Assembly: GCA_017446095.1 (NCBI GenBank)
Contig: JAFSRN010000019.1
Location: 101,820-165,819 of the forward strand
DNA: 64,000 nt
Origin: Eubacterium sp.
GTDB lineage: Bacteria; Bacillota; Clostridia; Oscillospirales; Acutalibacteraceae
Direction of reading: 5' to 3'
Part shown: in pieces, positions 14,155 through 23,072 of the stretch
Layout of the letters: each line of letters opens with the position of its first letter
How positions within the stretch are numbered: position 1 is the first letter of the stretch
Translations under genes and position numbers: made by a program
Notes under the pieces: generated by a model
The model's input: only the letters and a program-made list of their open reading frames with translations
Told to the model about the DNA's origin: nothing
The model's database searches: none

Positions 14155-15336
14155 TTATTTTTTCTGTGAGTTTTGCTGCTGCTTTTTCATCGTTTCTACG
14201 TCCTCGGGGTCGAGCGTGGGACGATAGAAAAGTATTTTGCTGAGCCATTTGAATATAATTGCTACAATCACGGTTACAGCAATGTACTTGAGGAACGTAA
14301 ACGGCAGGTTGTAAATCAGCACGCCGCGAGAGAGAGTAGGAATTTCCGTAATAATACCGTTCAGCGGTGCAGGCAGGTGGCTGTTGAGCGCACGCAGCGC
14401 GTCGTTGTAAATAACTAAATACGATTCCGCTGTGTATCCGTATGCGCCGAACTGACGGAAAATCATCGGCTGTGCAATCTTTGTAACAGTAAAGTACGAA
14501 ATCGGGGTTGCAACCAGCGCACCGATTAAGCCGCTTTTAAAAATCATTTTGCCGCGGTTGTCACGAACACCCTCGGGGTCCTCCATCATACGCTTTTCAA
14601 TCGCCATTGGGGAGAACATTCCGCGCGCAAAGATAAAGCTTGCCACGCCTACAAATGCCGAGTCCATAATCGCGTTTGATATTGCCGTTGCGGCTACGGC
14701 GTCGCCCATAATAATAGCAAATAATCCGTTTTTAATAAGCACTATCGCAACGCCCGCGATAGGTCCGAACGAAACCGCTGCAAGCAGTTCGGGAATTGCG
14801 GACAAATCAGTCCTTATCATATTTGGCATAAGCGGAAGTCTGAACGTTATAAGTTGCAGCAAAAACGCTGTTATAGCAAGGACTGCACAGGTTGCGATGT
14901 TGCGGATAACAATCTTTTTGAACACCTTGTCGTCCTCGTCCTCGTTGGCGAGCGGTTTTGCTTCAACATCGCTTGAAAACGACACTGTGCCGCCCTCGCT
15001 GCCCTGTGATAACTTGAGTGTAGACGCGGGCTTTGCGTTAGATTTGCGTTCGCTTTCGACTTGTTTTTTTGCCGCTTCTTTTTCGGCAGCCTCTTTTTTA
15101 ACAGCCTCGCGCTTTGCGATTCTTTCCTTCGCGGTGTAGTCGCCTTCAATCATTTCAAGGGCGTCCTTCATCTCCTGCTCGCGCTCAAGCATTTCGAGAT
15201 AACGCGCTCTGCCGCTTAAGCCTTCCGCGCCGCGGTTATCGCCGGAGGAAGACCTGTAGCCGCCTCTGTCGTCCTTATCCCTGATATATCTGGAGTTAGA
15301 GCCGGAGCCCTTATCTTTAATATATTTAGATTCCAT
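14155..15336 (-). CDS. RibU-like ECF transporter S-component with charged N-terminal extension (paralogue 1)
   Basis: 393 residues from the ATG at 15336 (AGGGGAT ribosome site). About 145 residues of charged, low-complexity sequence (SKYIKDKGSGSNSRYIRDKD, KREAVKKEAAEKEAAKKQ) precede a six-segment membrane domain. That domain has the RibU-family signature LPLMPNMIRTDLSAIPELLA and FGPIAGVAIVLIKNG. RibU-type S-components capture riboflavin and work with the EcfAA'T energising module, which is absent here. The long cytoplasmic N-terminus is unusual for the family. The paralogue at 18885 shares it and the C-terminal YNLPFTFLKY-type motif. It follows peptide B by 163 bases and may be in its operon. 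Confidence 0.75.
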   Translation of the reverse strand: MESKYIKDKGSGSNSRYIRDKDDRGGYRSSSGDNRGAEGLSGRARYLEMLEREQEMKDALEMIEGDYTAKERIAKREAVKKEAAEKEAAKKQVESERKSNAKPASTLKLSQGSEGGTVSFSSDVEAKPLANEDEDDKVFKKIVIRNIATCAVLAITAFLLQLITFRLPLMPNMIRTDLSAIPELLAAVSFGPIAGVAIVLIKNGLFAIIMGDAVAATAISNAIMDSAFVGVASFIFARGMFSPMAIEKRMMEDPEGVRDNRGKMIFKSGLIGALVATPISYFTVTKIAQPMIFRQFGAYGYTAESYLVIYNDALRALNSHLPAPLNGIITEIPTLSRGVLIYNLPFTFLKYIAVTVIVAIIFKWLSKILFYRPTLDPEDVETMKKQQQNSQKK

Positions 15337-15460
15337 ATAATATCCCCTGTTTGTTATTTTTTGCTCGCGGAGCGATGCCGTCACCGTTCCCTACGGATTG
15401 TGCTTTAATGCAGGGAACGCTGACCGCAGCGTTCCAAAACGGAATTGTTATACACCAATC

Positions 15461-15499: not shown

Positions 15500-15655
15500 T
15501 TATGAGCCGGTGTAAGGTCCAAAATTAGCAAGTGATGCCGGACCGGTCTCAAACACACCGCTCGTGATAGATTTCGGATCAGATGTTGTGATAACATCCT
15601 CAGTGGAGGTATTCACAACTTTGAATTCGGGTTCTTTGTATTCAAACTTTGTCAT
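15500..15655 (-). CDS. 51-residue peptide coupled to secreted beta-helix protein (peptide B)
   Basis: A 51-residue peptide: MTKFEYKEPEFKVVNTSTED then VITTSDPKSITSGVF, ending FGPYTGS. No signal peptide and no cysteine. The stop codon of the 915-residue secreted protein is fused to its ribosome site (TAAGGAGG), 13 bases before the ATG, the same arrangement as for peptide A. Both are 51 residues with the EPEF[RK]VV...DV[LI]T[AT]S core while the C-terminal halves diverge, as expected if the conserved half is a recognition region (inference). Function unknown. Confidence 0.8.
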   Translation of the reverse strand: MTKFEYKEPEFKVVNTSTEDVITTSDPKSITSGVFETGPASLANFGPYTGS

Positions 15656-15668
15656 TGTGTTTACCTCC

Positions 15669-18416
15669 TTATTGTGCAAAATAGTTTTCAGCAGCTGTGC
15701 CGTACAGATATGCAGCCTTTGCAAGAGTTGCAAGTTTAGCATTGCTATCGTATGACATAACCTTTAATACTGTGTTAGCGGTGAAAACAATAGGACCACT
15801 GCTGGTATTAACGGTAATAGTATTGTTCATATTAGCCGGTTCAATACCCTTAATGTTGATTCCCCAGTAATCGCCGTTCTGACCTGTTGCAGTTGCAGCA
15901 AATCTTGAGCCGCCTCTGTCAGTATCAAGTTTTGCGCTGTTTACGCTAATGTCGTAATCAGCAAAAAGATTGATTTCAAGGTCAGACTTAACAACAAGTG
16001 TAGCTAACTTTATGTTGTTTGGAAGTGAAACGAAGTTTGCAACGCCGGAAAGGTCAGCGTTTTTAACGTCATTGTAGAACGCGTTATTGGTGTTATCCTT
16101 TGTTGCCATTTCGCTTTCGTTGTACTCAAACAGCTTCTGTGCAGCTGCTGCATAGTCAAGAGTTGACTCTGCAACTTCCTTAAGTTTTGCATTATACTCG
16201 CCTGTGATGATTTCACGGCAGTATGAGTAAGCGTTTGTTTCATAAGTTTTAACAACAACATTATTCTTAATGATGTTAATTTCTACAGGCTCTGTAATCT
16301 GTGCAGGTGCCTGAGGAATTGAAATCAGACGACCGCCGTCAACTGCCGGAAGAGTATCAATATCTACAGTTTCAGTCTTGAATTCAGGTGTCTGGCTTAC
16401 GTTACTGTTGTGGTTGTAAGTAATCTCAACCTTTGCGTCTTCGCCGTAGTAATCTTCGTCGATGTAGAAGTTTTCGGTGATTGTGTCAGCAACCTCAATG
16501 CTCTGCGCATCTTCAGCAACAGTCTTATAAACTTCACCGGTTGTCATATTCTGTGCGTAGTTAGGTGCAATGTTTTCTGCAGGAATCGTATAAACAGAAT
16601 CGTCAGCCTTTTTAACAGTACCGCCCTTGAACTGAGTGTTTGAAGTTTCGCAAGAAGAACCTGTCTGAATAAGCTTCTTGCCTGCGGGAACTGTGTAGTT
16701 ACCGCCTTCAACATTGATGTGTCCGAACAATCTATTCTGATACTGAGCAGTACCAAGGACAGCTGCGCCGCCTGTTGTGAAGTTACCGCTTTCAACGTTA
16801 ACTGTTGATTCGCAGTCAGCCCAAATAGCGTAATACGCGCTGCTTCCTGTAACGTCGCAATCCTTAACAGTTACTTCGGCATTATAAGTGTGAATACCAT
16901 AGTTAACAGTAAGGTTTTCTAATGTAACAGTAGCCTTCTGTGCAGGGTCGGGCTCTCCGTTAGAACCGTCTCTACCCCAAACGTAAACACCATACTGATA
17001 TCCGGTAGCGTCTGAGTTATCAATTGCTTCCATTGTACCATTCTTGATTGTTGCATTTGTTCCTTCAAAGAGAACGCCCCAACGACCTGAAGCAGTAAAT
17101 GTATGCTGATTAAGGTCAATGGTAACATTTGAAATATCAATCCTATGCTGTCCTTTAGGCTCATACGAAGTAAGGTCAACATCGTTAACAAGTGTTACAG
17201 TGTCAATGCCGGCTGCCTGTGCAGCATCAATAGCGTCCTCAAGGTCGGCATAAAGCACGCCGTCAACCTTTGCAACATAACCGTCTGTTGTAGCAACGGT
17301 ATATGTTCCCTCTGTTGCTCCATTAACGCCTGTGTAACCGTCTGCACAAAATTCCTCAGGAACAGGCGCGCTGAAGGTACCGCCGCTTATAACAAGTGTT
17401 ACATCATCAGTTGCGTCGACTGAGAAGTCACCCATTGCCTTAAGCTCAACATTATTGCCTGCGCCAAGAGCAACGGTAACATCTTCAATTTCAGCATCCG
17501 GGTTTACATAGTCTTTAAGATATTCAACGTTATTTGTGAAGAGGAACTGGTGGTTAGCTTCACCGTCAATTGAGATATCGCAACCGCTAATATCAAAATC
17601 AATATCAGAATCCTCAACAACAAGTGTACCGAATGCATTGGTTAAACCGGAATTCGAGTTCTTTGAAGTAAGTGTGCTGTCGGTAATAGTGAAGGTTGAA
17701 CCTGCAGAGCCTGCAGAGCCGTCAATACCCTTTGCATAAATGCAAGCCCAGCCCTTAACAGTACTGTCGTCAATAGTCATATCAACAGGGTTAAAGGTGA
17801 TGATTGCATAGCCCTTCGAACCGTCATCGCTGGTCTGAATCGTACTGTCGGTAATATTAACCGTTGCCTTCGTGGACTGATTGCCGCCTATAGTGAGGGG
17901 CTGCAGGTAACCTGATGTGCCGGTTGTCTTAAGAGTTGCATTATCAAGAGTAAGCGAATTAAGGTTACCGCGTGTGTCAACACAACGACCTGCATTGGTG
18001 GGGTTGGTAATCGTAATATCCTTAAAGGTAACATCAACGGGTGCGGAAGCATTCATACCAACACCAAAGCCACGGTTATTGATTGTAACAGTATGGTCGT
18101 TACCCTCAAAAGTCAAAGACTTTGAGATGGCAAATCTGCTGCTTGAAGAAGAGCCTGTGTTAATAGTAGCATCCTCAAGCATTGTGATTGTGGCACCGCT
18201 CGGTGCAGCAGCAATAGCCGCTTCAAGAGTTTCATAATGGTCTGTGCCGTTTACAAGGAAGCCGCTGACTGTAGGATTGTCAATACTGATACCTCCGGAA
18301 GCTCCCGTTCCGCTGCCGCTGCTTCCCGGAGGAGCCGCAAACACCGTGAACGGCATCATAGAGATTGCCATTAATGCAGCAAGAAATGCAGCAAGAATTT
18401 TCTTTGAAATTCTCAT
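15669..18416 (-). CDS. Large secreted beta-helix surface protein (paralogue B)
   Basis: 915 residues from the ATG at 18416 (AAAGGA ribosome site). Signal peptide (MRISKKILAAFLAALMAISM), a Gly/Ser linker, then beta-helix repeats (about 50-610) with units such as ATINTGSSSSSRFAISKSLT. The C-terminal region (about 640-915) has ESTLDYAAAAQKLFEYNESE and ends AKAAYLYGTAAENYFAQ, matching the layout of the 885-residue neighbour. No LPxTG motif or transmembrane anchor. Likely a surface or released polysaccharide- or host-binding protein. Peptide B follows in the same transcript. Its leader is long (about 270 bases) and contains a hairpin array. Confidence 0.85.
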   Translation of the reverse strand: MRISKKILAAFLAALMAISMMPFTVFAAPPGSSGSGTGASGGISIDNPTVSGFLVNGTDHYETLEAAIAAAPSGATITMLEDATINTGSSSSSRFAISKSLTFEGNDHTVTINNRGFGVGMNASAPVDVTFKDITITNPTNAGRCVDTRGNLNSLTLDNATLKTTGTSGYLQPLTIGGNQSTKATVNITDSTIQTSDDGSKGYAIITFNPVDMTIDDSTVKGWACIYAKGIDGSAGSAGSTFTITDSTLTSKNSNSGLTNAFGTLVVEDSDIDFDISGCDISIDGEANHQFLFTNNVEYLKDYVNPDAEIEDVTVALGAGNNVELKAMGDFSVDATDDVTLVISGGTFSAPVPEEFCADGYTGVNGATEGTYTVATTDGYVAKVDGVLYADLEDAIDAAQAAGIDTVTLVNDVDLTSYEPKGQHRIDISNVTIDLNQHTFTASGRWGVLFEGTNATIKNGTMEAIDNSDATGYQYGVYVWGRDGSNGEPDPAQKATVTLENLTVNYGIHTYNAEVTVKDCDVTGSSAYYAIWADCESTVNVESGNFTTGGAAVLGTAQYQNRLFGHINVEGGNYTVPAGKKLIQTGSSCETSNTQFKGGTVKKADDSVYTIPAENIAPNYAQNMTTGEVYKTVAEDAQSIEVADTITENFYIDEDYYGEDAKVEITYNHNSNVSQTPEFKTETVDIDTLPAVDGGRLISIPQAPAQITEPVEINIIKNNVVVKTYETNAYSYCREIITGEYNAKLKEVAESTLDYAAAAQKLFEYNESEMATKDNTNNAFYNDVKNADLSGVANFVSLPNNIKLATLVVKSDLEINLFADYDISVNSAKLDTDRGGSRFAATATGQNGDYWGINIKGIEPANMNNTITVNTSSGPIVFTANTVLKVMSYDSNAKLATLAKAAYLYGTAAENYFAQ

Positions 18417-18884: not shown

Positions 18885-19865
18885 TTATTCTTTTGCGGCT
18901 TCGCCTGTATCCTTTTTGTAGATGAAGTTGCGGACAATTGCAAACACAGCCGCTGCAAGAAGTGCGCAGCAGAAGTATTTGAGGAAGTTAAGCGGCAGGT
19001 TGTAGACGAACATACCGTCGCGCAGTGTGCCGATAGACGGCAGAATCATCCCGATAAAAGGCAGGCGGACTATTAGTTTTTCAAACGCACTGCTGTAATT
19101 TTCAAGCAGCATTGCGTTGATTGCCGCACTGTCCGTGCCGAAGAACACCTGCAACAGCGGCATTGTGATAAACCTGAATGTGAGCAGCGAGCAAAACGCG
19201 GTTACCGTGCCGCTTACCAAGCCGCTTAAAAACATCACAAAGCCCGAAAAATCGTTTGGTGCAAGCTCTGTGCTTACGTACACATCGTTGCGCCTGTCGA
19301 GCCGTTTTGACTGTATAATCCGCCTGTACAGCAGCCACGTAATCAGGATAAAAATGATGTTAAGCACAATCTTGTTGGGTATGCTTGGCGCGGCGTTCGG
19401 GTTAAGCAAAAAGTATATGCCGTTTTTTACAAACACAATTGCGATTGCGATTGCAGGGTTAACAGTAAACGCCGCAAGCAGTTCCCCAAATGCGGAAAAA
19501 TCTATGCTGACCAGCGACGGAGTGTACGGCAGCTGAAACGGGAACAAATTAAACGCCAGCGAGAGAATAAGGCACACAAACGTGATGAGCGCCTTGCGCC
19601 GCAAAACCGATTTTTTTGCAGATTTTGCCGCCTCTTTTTCGTTAACGGCAAGCATATTTTTGTCGTCCGCAAGCGGTTTAGCCAGGTCCTGATCGGGCAG
19701 GTTGCCCTTTTGCGACGGCGCTTTGCGGTATTTTGACGGCTTTTTGGAATATTCCTCGTACGGCACAAACCTGTCCTTACGCTTGCCCGGGGGAGCCGGC
19801 GGCGGTGGCGGCGGTGGCGGTGGTGCTATGCGCCGCTTTTCCATATTCGGTTTTTGGTTATCCAT
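18885..19865 (-). CDS. RibU-like ECF S-component with proline-rich N-terminal extension (paralogue 2)
   Basis: 326 residues. The N-terminal 90 residues are cytoplasmic and low-complexity, with a run of nine prolines then APPGKRKDRF. The membrane domain has LPYTPSLVSIDFSAFGELLA and a KNG motif, as in RibU, and ends DGMFVYNLPLNFLKY. It is clearly paralogous to the protein at 14155 (shared KPLA[ND], P..P..[VI].[TI]D.SA..ELLAA, YNLP..FLKY). No Ecf ATPase or T component is nearby. It is third in the transcript after the repeat protein and the radical SAM enzyme, with 33 bases between. Substrate unknown. Confidence 0.7.
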   Translation of the reverse strand: MDNQKPNMEKRRIAPPPPPPPPPAPPGKRKDRFVPYEEYSKKPSKYRKAPSQKGNLPDQDLAKPLADDKNMLAVNEKEAAKSAKKSVLRRKALITFVCLILSLAFNLFPFQLPYTPSLVSIDFSAFGELLAAFTVNPAIAIAIVFVKNGIYFLLNPNAAPSIPNKIVLNIIFILITWLLYRRIIQSKRLDRRNDVYVSTELAPNDFSGFVMFLSGLVSGTVTAFCSLLTFRFITMPLLQVFFGTDSAAINAMLLENYSSAFEKLIVRLPFIGMILPSIGTLRDGMFVYNLPLNFLKYFCCALLAAAVFAIVRNFIYKKDTGEAAKE

Positions 19866-19898: not shown

Positions 19899-20930
19899 TT
19901 ATGCATCGGGCGCCAAAGCTGCCCTTAAGCAGACAGCGCTTTCGTACATTTTGCCTGTGTTGAAGTAGTTGAACGACCTGCAGCCGCCTGCGCATCTGTA
20001 CCACATTTCGCAGTCTGCGCACCTGCCCGTGAGCATATCGCGCGTGAACTTCCTGTTATACGCAAAGGAGTCGGGGCTGTTCCAGATTTCGTACAGAGTC
20101 TGCGTTTTGAGGTTGCCCTCAATAAACTCGTCGGCGTAAAGCGATTCGCAGCCGCGCACGTTGCCCAGCGAATCAATGCCGACCACGGTAATCCCTGCGC
20201 TGCAGCCGCCAAAGCAACCGCCCGTTTTAAGGCGAATCCCCTGCTCTTTTTCGGTATGATAGCCGATGTTATCCGCAACAAGCAGGATTGTTTTGCTGCG
20301 CGGCTTGTTGGCGTAAACAAAGTCGCACACCGCAGCCATATCGTCCTTGGACATAATAAGGCTGCGCCTGTCTGCAGCGTTGCCGAACGGCGAGCACGCC
20401 TGCATCTGCCACGCCTCTATACCAAGCGGCAGCAGCACGTCTGCAAGTTCCTGCAAGGTCTTTGCACTCTCGGCATTGAGGGTGGATATAACCGACGTTA
20501 CAATGCCGTTGCTTTTGAGCAGCTTGATAGCGGCAACCGCCTTGTCAAAACTGCCCTGCGTTCTGTATTTATCATGCACCTCTTGCGCACCGTCAATGGA
20601 TACCGAAACGTGCTTTATACCAGCGTTTTTGAGGTCGCGAACAATGCCTTCGTCAACAAGCGCACCGTTTGTGATAATGCTTGTGTCAACGCCTGCAGAG
20701 GTAAGCATTTTGCAGATTTTATCCCAGCCGCTGTACAAAAACGCCTCTCCGCCGATTATAACTACGCGGCGGCATTTCATATCAATAAGCTGCTGCGCAA
20801 CGCCTGCTGATTCCTCAAAAGTAAGCTCGCCCTCGCCCTTTTTGCCTGCGCGCGTGCCGCAGTAAGCGCAGTTAAAATTACAGCGCCTTGTGAGTTCCCA
20901 CACGCAGGTGTCAAGCTTAAACCTCGTCAT
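19899..20930 (-). CDS. Radical SAM/SPASM peptide-maturase-like enzyme
   Basis: 343 residues from the ATG at 20930. The radical SAM cluster motif CNFNCAYC (Cys17, 21, 24) and GGE (60-62) are intact. The C-terminal SPASM region (about 230-335) has GGCFGGC, GNVRGCE, EGNLKTQTLYEIW and CADCEMWYRCAGGCR, enough cysteines for auxiliary Fe-S clusters. SPASM enzymes of this size mostly modify ribosomally made peptides or mature enzymes. Its start overlaps the last 14 bases of the YASPDVM-repeat gene, so the two are translationally coupled and that protein is the best substrate candidate. The linkage made is unknown. An upstream in-frame ATG at 20966 lies deeper in the neighbour without a ribosome site. 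Confidence 0.85.
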   Translation of the reverse strand: MTRFKLDTCVWELTRRCNFNCAYCGTRAGKKGEGELTFEESAGVAQQLIDMKCRRVVIIGGEAFLYSGWDKICKMLTSAGVDTSIITNGALVDEGIVRDLKNAGIKHVSVSIDGAQEVHDKYRTQGSFDKAVAAIKLLKSNGIVTSVISTLNAESAKTLQELADVLLPLGIEAWQMQACSPFGNAADRRSLIMSKDDMAAVCDFVYANKPRSKTILLVADNIGYHTEKEQGIRLKTGGCFGGCSAGITVVGIDSLGNVRGCESLYADEFIEGNLKTQTLYEIWNSPDSFAYNRKFTRDMLTGRCADCEMWYRCAGGCRSFNYFNTGKMYESAVCLRAALAPDA

Positions 20931-21294
20931 CAAACGCCCCCATAATATCGGGACCTGCGTACACATCGTTGCACTCGTCCATATTTGCCGCAGGGTAGCA
21001 TGCGCCCATAACGTCGGGCGAAGCGTAAACCGTCATCGGCATATCGTCAGGCACCTGCGGCAGCGGATACGAATACTGCCCTGCAGGCGGATTGTTGTTG
21101 CCGCTCATAACGTCCGGCGACGCGTAAGCAGGCATTGCCGGACTGAACGGCACGCCGTTTGAATCAAGATTATTTGCAAAAAAATCGGGCGACGGATTGG
21201 GTATCTGCTGTGTCTGCACCTCGTTACAATGCGGGCAGTGAGCATACGAATCCGCGTCAAAGTAATGCCCGTTAGGGCACTGAATAACTCTCAT
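20917..21294 (-). CDS. Zinc-ribbon-like protein with YASPDVM repeats, candidate rSAM substrate
   Basis: A 125-residue protein. Residues 6-23 form C-x3-H-x9-C-x2-C (CPNGHYFD...CPHC), like the metal-binding start of clostridial FHA/zinc-ribbon proteins. A Pro/Asn-rich tail carries repeated motifs: PSPDFF (34-39), YASPDVM (57-63), YASPDVM (90-96), YAGPDIM (112-118), spaced 33 and 22 residues. No signal peptide. The 3' end overlaps the radical SAM start by 14 bases. A leader-like ordered N-terminus, a repetitive core and a coupled SPASM enzyme suggest a multi-core RiPP precursor or modified protein (inference). Not a family I recognise. Ribosome site AAAGGGG 11 bases upstream. Confidence 0.75.
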   Translation of the reverse strand: MRVIQCPNGHYFDADSYAHCPHCNEVQTQQIPNPSPDFFANNLDSNGVPFSPAMPAYASPDVMSGNNNPPAGQYSYPLPQVPDDMPMTVYASPDVMGACYPAANMDECNDVYAGPDIMGAFDDEV

Positions 21295-21423: not shown

Positions 21424-21684
21424 AACAAAGGCATTGACGAAGAAAAGTAATGCGAAGATGTGCTTTTAGAGAGCGCGGGACGGTGGAAGCCGCGCAGTAA
21501 CAGTCGCACGAAGAACACTTCTGAGCCGCAAACTGAACGGATTAACCAAGTAGGTGCGCCGCAGGCTGAGCGTTAACACACAGCAGGCTTTAATGACGAA
21601 GCTATGAGAAGCAATATAGGTGGCACCACGGGTAAGCCTACTCGTCCTATGGTTTAGGGCAGTATGGCTTTATTTTTATTTTTA
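21424..21684 (+). ncRNA. T-box leader (Asn specifier) upstream of asnS
   Basis: The leader has the stem I landmark AGAGAG, a specifier-loop region GAAGAACACTTCTGAG with AAC (Asn) at 21514-21516, and the T-box core GGTGGCACCACGGGT at about 21621-21635. A terminator hairpin follows (AAGCC.../...GGCTT then TTATTTTTATTT). Uncharged tRNA-Asn would bind the specifier and the T-box bulge and favour the antiterminator. The specifier agrees with the downstream asparaginyl-tRNA synthetase. Confidence 0.93.
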
Positions 21685-21695
21685 GAGGTGATTTT

Positions 21696-23072
21696 ATGAA
21701 ACACACAGACATCAAGGACATTATCACAAGCGAGGAGTTTATCGGCAAAGAGGTTACTGTTTGCGGCTGGGTTCGCACCGCGCGCGACAGCAAAAACGTT
21801 GCCTTCCTTGAACTCAACGACGGCACAAGCCTTAAGCACCTGCAAATTGTTATTGACAAGAGCAGCGACATCAAGGTTGACCCCGAGGCTACAAAGCTCG
21901 GCGCGTCGCTCAAAGTAACAGGTAAGGTTGTAAAAAACGAGCGCAACAACACAAGCGAAATTGACGCTACGGAGATTACTCTGCTCGGCGTTTGCCCCGG
22001 CGACTATCCGCTGCAAAAGAAGTTCCAGAAGCTTGAAACCCTGCGTGAAATGCCGCACATCAGAGTGCGCACAAACACGTTTAACGCAGTGCTTCGCGTG
22101 CGTTCAGTAATGGCTGCGGCTATCCACAGGTTCTTCCAGGAACGCGGCTACGTTTACATCAACACGCCGCTGATTACAGGCTCGGACTGCGAGGGCGCGG
22201 GCGAGATGTTCCAGGTTACGACCATCGGCTACAGCAAGGACTACGACAGCGAGGAGGAGTACTACGCAGACGACTTCTTCGGTCAGAAAACGGGACTCTC
22301 CGTTTCCGGTCAGCTTGAGGGCGAAATGGCTGCAATGGGCATGGGTAAAATATACACGTTTGGCCCGTCCTTCAGGGCGGAAAACTCAAACACGCAGCGC
22401 CACGTTGCGGAGTTCTGGCACGTTGAGCCGGAAATCGCATTCTGCGAGCTGCCCGACCTTATTGAAATTGCGGAAGAGATGATTAAGTACATCGTTAAGG
22501 ACTATATGGAAAAATGCCCCGACGAGCTTGCTTTCTTTGAGCAGAGGTTTGAAAAGGGACTTACCGAAAAGCTGCTGGGCGTTGTAAACAGCGACTTTGA
22601 GGTTGTTGACTACACGGATGCAATCGAACTGCTTAAAAAGGCAGACGTTAAGTTTGAGTTCCCTGTTGACTGGGGCGCAGACCTGCAGAGCGAGCACGAG
22701 CGCTACCTGACAGAGCAGGTTTACAAAAAGCCGATTTTCCTGATTAACTACCCCAAGGGCATCAAGTCGTTTTATATGAAGCAGAACGACGACGGCAAAA
22801 CCGTTGCGGCAACCGACCTGCTTGTTCCAGGCGTGGGCGAGATTATCGGCGGCAGTGAAAGAGAGGCTGACTACGACAAGCTTCTTGCGGCTATGGAAGA
22901 AAAAGGCATGGGCACAGAGGGCTACGAGATGTACCTTGACCTGCGTAAGTTCGGCAGCGTGCCGCACGCAGGCTTCGGACTTGGCTTTGAGAGAATTATT
23001 ATGTACTGCACCGGCATGGCGAACATCCGCGATGTGATACTCTTCCCGAGAACGGTGGGAAGCATAAAATAA
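21696..23072 (+). CDS. asnS: Asparaginyl-tRNA synthetase
   Basis: A 458-residue class IIb synthetase that charges tRNA-Asn. An N-terminal OB-fold anticodon-binding domain (about 15-110; VTVCGWVRTARDSKNVAFLE) precedes the class II core. Motif 2 is FGPSFRAENSNTQRHVAEFW and motif 3 is HAGFGLGFERIIMY. The HVAEFWHVEPE and YPKGIKSFYMKQ segments are typical of AsnRS rather than AspRS. Ribosome site AGAGGTG. Controlled by the T-box. asnA lies downstream beyond a repeat element. Confidence 0.97.
   Translation: MKHTDIKDIITSEEFIGKEVTVCGWVRTARDSKNVAFLELNDGTSLKHLQIVIDKSSDIKVDPEATKLGASLKVTGKVVKNERNNTSEIDATEITLLGVCPGDYPLQKKFQKLETLREMPHIRVRTNTFNAVLRVRSVMAAAIHRFFQERGYVYINTPLITGSDCEGAGEMFQVTTIGYSKDYDSEEEYYADDFFGQKTGLSVSGQLEGEMAAMGMGKIYTFGPSFRAENSNTQRHVAEFWHVEPEIAFCELPDLIEIAEEMIKYIVKDYMEKCPDELAFFEQRFEKGLTEKLLGVVNSDFEVVDYTDAIELLKKADVKFEFPVDWGADLQSEHERYLTEQVYKKPIFLINYPKGIKSFYMKQNDDGKTVAATDLLVPGVGEIIGGSEREADYDKLLAAMEEKGMGTEGYEMYLDLRKFGSVPHAGFGLGFERIIMYCTGMANIRDVILFPRTVGSIK

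Follow-up and report, generated by a model that had tools for sequence, protein, structure and literature searches.

The window analysed here (64,000 nt of contig JAFSRN010000019.1 from Eubacterium sp.) carries a gene for a 125-aa protein with a repeated tyrosine motif, and this gene overlaps a gene for a radical SAM/SPASM enzyme (Table 1). The same type of pairing is present in all loci of the enzyme's clade, the motif is conserved between these loci, and the enzymes share kinship with the splicease-type group. Sequence comparisons indicate that this is a real, rare and conserved enzyme-substrate pair, which most likely works like a splicease. The best explanation, which is considered fairly probable, is a splicease-like two-gene module that would excise tyrosine from the backbone of a zinc-ribbon protein.

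Table 1. Features of the two-gene module and the adjacent gene, in window coordinates
Feature	Positions	Strand	Basis or remark
Membrane protein, weak ECF-transporter S-component match (23.7 bits, cut-off 30.7)	18885..19865	-	33-base gap after the enzyme
Radical SAM/SPASM enzyme, 343 aa	19899..20930	-	ATG 20930 overlaps the precursor end (20917) by 14 bases
SPASM domain	20007..20204	-	domain search
WQMQACSPFGN, variant of the relatives' WQxQ....MGN signature	20379..20411	-	alignment
CNFNCAYC, radical SAM [4Fe-4S] motif	20859..20882	-	cysteines invariant in 12/12 clade enzymes
Putative substrate (precursor) gene, 125 aa	20917..21294	-	ORF list; Pfam and NCBIfam searches to E 0.1 without a match
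Core site 3, (V)YAGPDIM, residue 112	20941..20961	-	motif search
Core site 2, (V)YASPDVM, residue 90	21007..21027	-	motif search
Core site 1, (A)YASPDVM, residue 57	21106..21126	-	motif search
Degenerate copy PSPDFF without Tyr (NPSPDFF, residue 33)	21178..21195	-	sequence
Zinc-binding-like N-terminal module C-x3-H-x9-C-x2-C	21226..21279	-	sequence; common to FHA-domain proteins

The 125-aa protein and its repeats

The first-pass annotation described a C-x3-H-x9-C-x2-C start, two YASPDVM heptapeptides, one YAGPDIM and a looser PSPDFF, with the heptapeptides spaced 33 and 22 residues apart. All of these are present in the translated ORF, where the zinc-like residues are C6-x3-H-x9-C20-x2-C23. 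The repeats are not readily produced by composition: in 100,000 shuffles of the protein a single YA[SG]PD[VI]M occurred in one shuffle and more than one copy in none. A DNA pattern of the heptapeptide type has four matches in 41 genomes of the genus, namely the three window sites and one in a beta-galactosidase gene. Sactipeptides and ranthipeptides have Cys in the core, and Cys is absent inside all three window motifs.

Close homologues of the 125-aa protein were not found; a search of genome contigs gave one locus, in which the ribbon only is matched. When 60 genomes from the genus and the order were compared, six non-self matches appeared, in the same genome and three others, and those inspected cover the N-terminus only. 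The start of the protein, CxNGHYYD..CPHC, also heads FHA-domain proteins of this and another genome (L006, L008, L003).

The radical SAM/SPASM enzyme

CNFNCAYC and CADCEMWYRCAGGCR are intact in the enzyme, as had been reported in the first pass, with Pfam matches to Radical_SAM (3e-28) and SPASM (4e-8). The enzyme thus has the radical SAM and SPASM domains with CxxxCxxC that are expected of a splicease. The likely start is ATG 20930, with GGGGGCG upstream, and given this start the overlap proposed earlier between the two genes holds; an alternative longer ORF from ATG 20966 gives an overlap of 50 bases. SkfB and SuiB are the best structural matches of the enzyme model, and PqqE and EpeE are also among the matches. 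By VIA-align, residue 1 of the model falls at about residue 100 in both SkfB and SuiB, so that, given the position of the RRE in these two enzymes, a fused N-terminal RRE is not expected.

The membrane protein gene that follows the enzyme is a possible operon member of the pair; no similar membrane protein was seen beside the relatives' enzymes among the neighbours listed. This ECF-transporter-like protein and another at 14155-15384 (reverse strand) have long charged or proline-rich N-terminal extensions, with Pfam matches below cut-off; between them is the gene of a secreted-looking protein of 918 aa. A small ORF at 15500-15742 (reverse strand) contains MTKFEYKEPEFKVV... and presumably resembles short peptides of Clostridia. 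On the other side of the module, a T-box leader (positions 21425-21652, forward strand; Rfam RF00230, 106.6 bits) precedes the gene at 21696 for a tRNA synthetase of class II (D, K, N).

A clade of twelve enzymes with adjacent motif proteins

The enzyme was used as query against several genome samples. At E 1e-50 there were matches in 6 of the order's 394 genomes and at 1e-60 in 13 of 391 genomes of the class, the window genome being included in both counts; in the family of G116, 4 of 63 genomes matched at 1e-60, one of them new. None of the 40 other genomes of the genus has a match at 1e-40. Six remote matches on viral contigs (23-28% identity) were set aside. Twelve enzymes form one clade with support 100/99, the other 11 being 44-50% identical to that of the window. 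A distant set of eight enzymes was treated apart; seven of them are class matches with 33-38% identity, and the eighth is from a sample of 299 phylum genomes.

A motif protein adjoins the enzyme in all 12 clade loci, which upholds the proposed pairing of a repeated-motif protein with a neighbouring SPASM enzyme. The motif protein is just upstream in 11 of the loci, either overlapping or within 64 bases; in L046 it is only downstream and starts 5 bases after the enzyme, and L045 and L048 have one motif protein on each side. The adjacent motif, V-Y-[A/G]-G/S-P-[E/D], has from one (L043) to ten (L044) copies per protein, and the single site of L043 is on a different protein of 94 aa. There are 55 sites in the clade (53 plus two from L046). 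Val precedes Tyr in 51 of them, and Tyr is followed by Ala in 49 and by Gly in 6; the constancy of Tyr and Pro at all 55 is due to the search pattern, which demanded both. An aromatic residue or Met recurs at position +5/+6. Not counted among the 55 are single loose-pattern matches in other ORFs of L040, L045, L046 (two) and L048, and the looser VYGGLEFF (L047) and NPSPDFF (window).

A stricter DNA pattern is found in 6 of the 391 class genomes, and five of these six have a clade enzyme; in the sixth (G102) the single match is inside an unrelated long ORF. The reversed control pattern is found in 3 of the 391, and one genome (G814) has a clade enzyme with no match to the stricter pattern. The Fisher p value for co-occurrence of motif and enzyme in the 391 genomes, 4.8e-10 (2.6e-8 without the window genome), describes an association and is no independent test, because the pattern was drawn after the loci had been seen. 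Alternatively, the two genes might be unrelated neighbours, the zinc-ribbon protein being an ordinary one and its repeats structural or due to chance; this would be in keeping with the N-terminal zinc module, which further proteins encoded in the genome also have (L006, L008). Such a reading is nevertheless very improbable, as it is contradicted by the adjacency in 12 of 12 loci, and the co-occurrence and the shuffles also speak against it.

Fourteen adjacent motif proteins were compared. Eight of them, from eight loci, have a C-terminal zinc ribbon, all above the Pfam Zn_Ribbon_1 cut-off, and the window protein is the only one with an N-terminal ribbon-like module. Neither type was apparent by eye in the proteins of L038, L043 and L046 and the upstream proteins of L045 and L048. 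The expectation from the window alone was that repeat number would vary among relatives while the N-terminus stayed constant. The number does vary, but the N-terminus is not conserved, and the view of the zinc-like N-terminus as a conserved recognition region has to be given up, since the ribbon is at the other end in eight loci and the window type heads FHA proteins. As the scaffolds differ and the ribbon placement varies, the family shares a motif and not a leader, which would fit a leader-independent enzyme.

No conserved third gene was noticed among the neighbours listed, and no RRE or exporter was found in the 12 clade loci. A search for a PlpY- or PqqD-like protein covered 1,047 ORFs from the 12 loci (22 kb in the case of the window) and gave no match; it is a weak search, made with single short queries and a Nostoc stand-in. 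Some neighbours of individual loci may be recorded. The downstream lipoproteins of L045, L046 and L048 have a Thr/Pro-rich linker that contains PYATP, which may be an additional site or a coincidence; those of L045 and L046 contain a PGA_cap domain. The genes after the enzyme in L014 (2650-3033)/L038 (10478-18001) encode a WXG100 protein, an FHA/DUF6382 protein and a protein kinase.

Relationship to the splicease group

Among NCBIfam models, 11 of the 12 clade enzymes match best to TIGR04103, presumably the model of the tyramine-excising splicease PlpX and corresponding to IPR026482; L041 has 216 bits with TIGR03913 versus 212 with TIGR04103. All 12 are below the TIGR04103 cut-off of 725 bits, with 197 bits for the window enzyme and 212-238 for the others. 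Enzymes of the XYG type (L031, L032, L049-L051, L068) are also below it, at 219-235 bits, and the Nostoc enzyme scores 853 bits. The window enzyme is likewise below the cut-offs of TIGR03913 (174.8 of 591.75 bits), TIGR04133 (162.8 of 425), mycofactocin MftC TIGR03962 (117.2 of 265) and the PapB model (74.4 of 340).

Two signatures, WQxQ....MGN and [AG][DN]NxGY[YFA], are both present in 10 of the 12 clade enzymes. The window enzyme has the variants SPFGN and GYH where the relatives have PMGN and GYY/F/A, and L043 has AHNIGYY. In the alignment the rows of TIGR04103, GDL and XYG-type enzymes have both signatures, and those of TIGR04133 (L056), L057 and MftC (L058) have neither.

The clostridial XYG-type enzymes (L031-L037, L051) have 33-39% identity to the window enzyme and the same signatures. 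The XYG-type enzymes form a separate clade (92/87), the exact place of which relative to the window clade is weakly resolved. Four of the seven loci L031-L037 have multi-copy YGxP, KYGYP or PLYGIEP cores, and L051 has MYGTG; these cores differ from those of the clade in having Gly. A C39-peptidase ABC exporter adjoins the L031 enzyme, a gene not found in the 12 clade loci. In the distant set, X-Y-G cores adjoin five of the eight enzymes (L032, L034, L036, L037, L068), with PLYGIEP in L032 and L034 and AYGIARP in L068, while a clear XYG peptide was not found within the flanks examined of L031, L033 and L035. The L036/L049 protein has ten KYGYPC repeats and the L037/L050 protein nine YGxP repeats, each beside an enzyme 33% identical to that of the window. 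A chagasin-like identity, presumed for the L036 protein, was rejected, as Pfam finds no such domain.

On an Agathobacter rectalis plasmid (L051), an unannotated 35-aa ORF upstream of 3995 ends in VMYGTGVRM directly before the radical SAM gene. The Nif11 precursor of the Nostoc TIGR04103 enzyme ends in ALYGLPPELF, the aromatic ending of which is similar to the clade motif. The earlier statement that the motif is unlike any known class is thus not sustained, as the motif resembles the X-Y-G cores of spliceases (LYGLPPELF, PLYGIEP, KYGYPCG).

These cores also bear on the suggestion that the repeats are docking sites, with the enzyme acting on something else and the zinc-ribbon protein as partner or carrier. 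Many copies in a low-complexity protein would suit such a role, as would the fact that no peptidase or exporter was seen as a conserved neighbour among the neighbours listed and the ORFs of the 12 loci. Small precursors of related systems, however, carry the Tyr motif as their C-terminal core (L054; the 35-aa ORF of L051), and L043 has one site on a different protein. Docking is therefore regarded as improbable.

Two other systems have partial similarity. The GDL-motif maturases (TIGR03913) share the enzyme signatures, and their DUF1843 peptides have Tyr motifs near the start (LYGG, PYGV, LYAA and MYAA, as in LYAAG and LYGGA). Their partners, however, are these small DUF1843 peptides in threes, whereas the window precursor is without a Pfam match. 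The TIGR04133 system, besides its score with the window enzyme, has a similar core, SCYGMPENYY, in a Treponema partner. That partner is a lipoprotein, whereas the window protein starts with the zinc-type motif and has no lipobox, and the L056 enzyme is without both signatures.

Proposed mechanism

PlpX belongs to IPR026482 (PMC11002830). PlpXY is described as excising tyramine at XYG, with a mass change of -135.0757 Da; the natural sites are MYG and LYG, and the leader is dispensable (PMC10533398). PlpXY does not take short tags indiscriminately: the FtsZ table of that report marks only two insertions as accepted, and both LYGLPI rows are not so marked (PMC10533398). Several splicings per precursor are described in a second report (PMC10373908). 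The window pair is similar to PlpXY in its SPASM enzyme, short x-Y-[G/A]-x-P motif, several sites per precursor and common enzyme signatures. It differs in the predominance of Ala after Tyr where splicing is described at X-Tyr-Gly, in carriers that are zinc-ribbon proteins where splicease precursors have Nif11/NHLP leaders, and in scores far below the TIGR04103 cut-off. X-Tyr-Gly is present at none of the three window sites and at 6 of the 55 clade sites. On two tests, the TIGR04103 cut-off and the XYG site, the pair falls outside strict splicease membership. Literature searches, in a coverage that omits most subscription journals, gave nothing relevant to the motif by titles and abstract starts and no match for YGPP together with radical SAM.

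In the proposed mechanism neither a leader nor an RRE would be needed, and the SPASM enzyme would directly recognize each short V/A-Y-A-[S/G]-P-D site. Radical chemistry would remove Tyr, most likely the reactive residue, in the form of a tyramine equivalent (C8H9NO), a change of -135.08 Da at each site, and the tyrosine's carbonyl would be joined to the preceding residue. After excision the zinc-ribbon protein would contain up to three alpha-keto-beta-amino acids (ketoamides). This predicted product probably remains intracellular, and its role may be that of an electrophile or a protease inhibitor.

Several points go against excision: Ala follows Tyr at all three window sites and at 49 of the 55 in the clade, all 12 enzymes score far below the TIGR04103 cut-off, the weak search for a PlpY- or PqqD-like protein gave no match, the window enzyme has the GYH and SPFGN variants, three of the eight distant relatives are without a clear XYG in the flanks examined, PlpXY accepts few short tags, and the aromatic residue or Met at +5/+6 is unexplained. 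The same Tyr motif might be modified otherwise, by cross-linking of Tyr with a nearby residue (Val, Pro, Asp/Glu or that at +5/+6), by decarboxylative or C-C bond chemistry, or by epimerization. SPASM and related enzymes of this fold, including those matched by the structural model, perform many reactions, Ala in place of Gly at +1 could give a different outcome, and excision does not explain the +5/+6 residues. Against this, the signatures and core motifs are common to the splicease-type group, and the Nostoc core has a similar aromatic ending. Such an alternative reaction is rather unlikely, although clearly less so than docking, and tyrosine excision is preferred.

A further proposal is put forward more tentatively than excision itself. 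A clade specialized for X-Tyr-Ala might convert zinc-ribbon proteins inside the cell, which have up to ten sites, into multi-electrophile proteins, either by excision or by an undescribed reaction, and the modified protein itself, not a released peptide, would be the product. If the proposed excision is true, the reach of radical backbone splicing would include sites with Ala as well as resident zinc-ribbon proteins, at sites for which a leader seems unnecessary. This would provide a testable substrate rule, possibly new protein-labelling tags, and a lead to the role of protein-bound ketoamides in cells.
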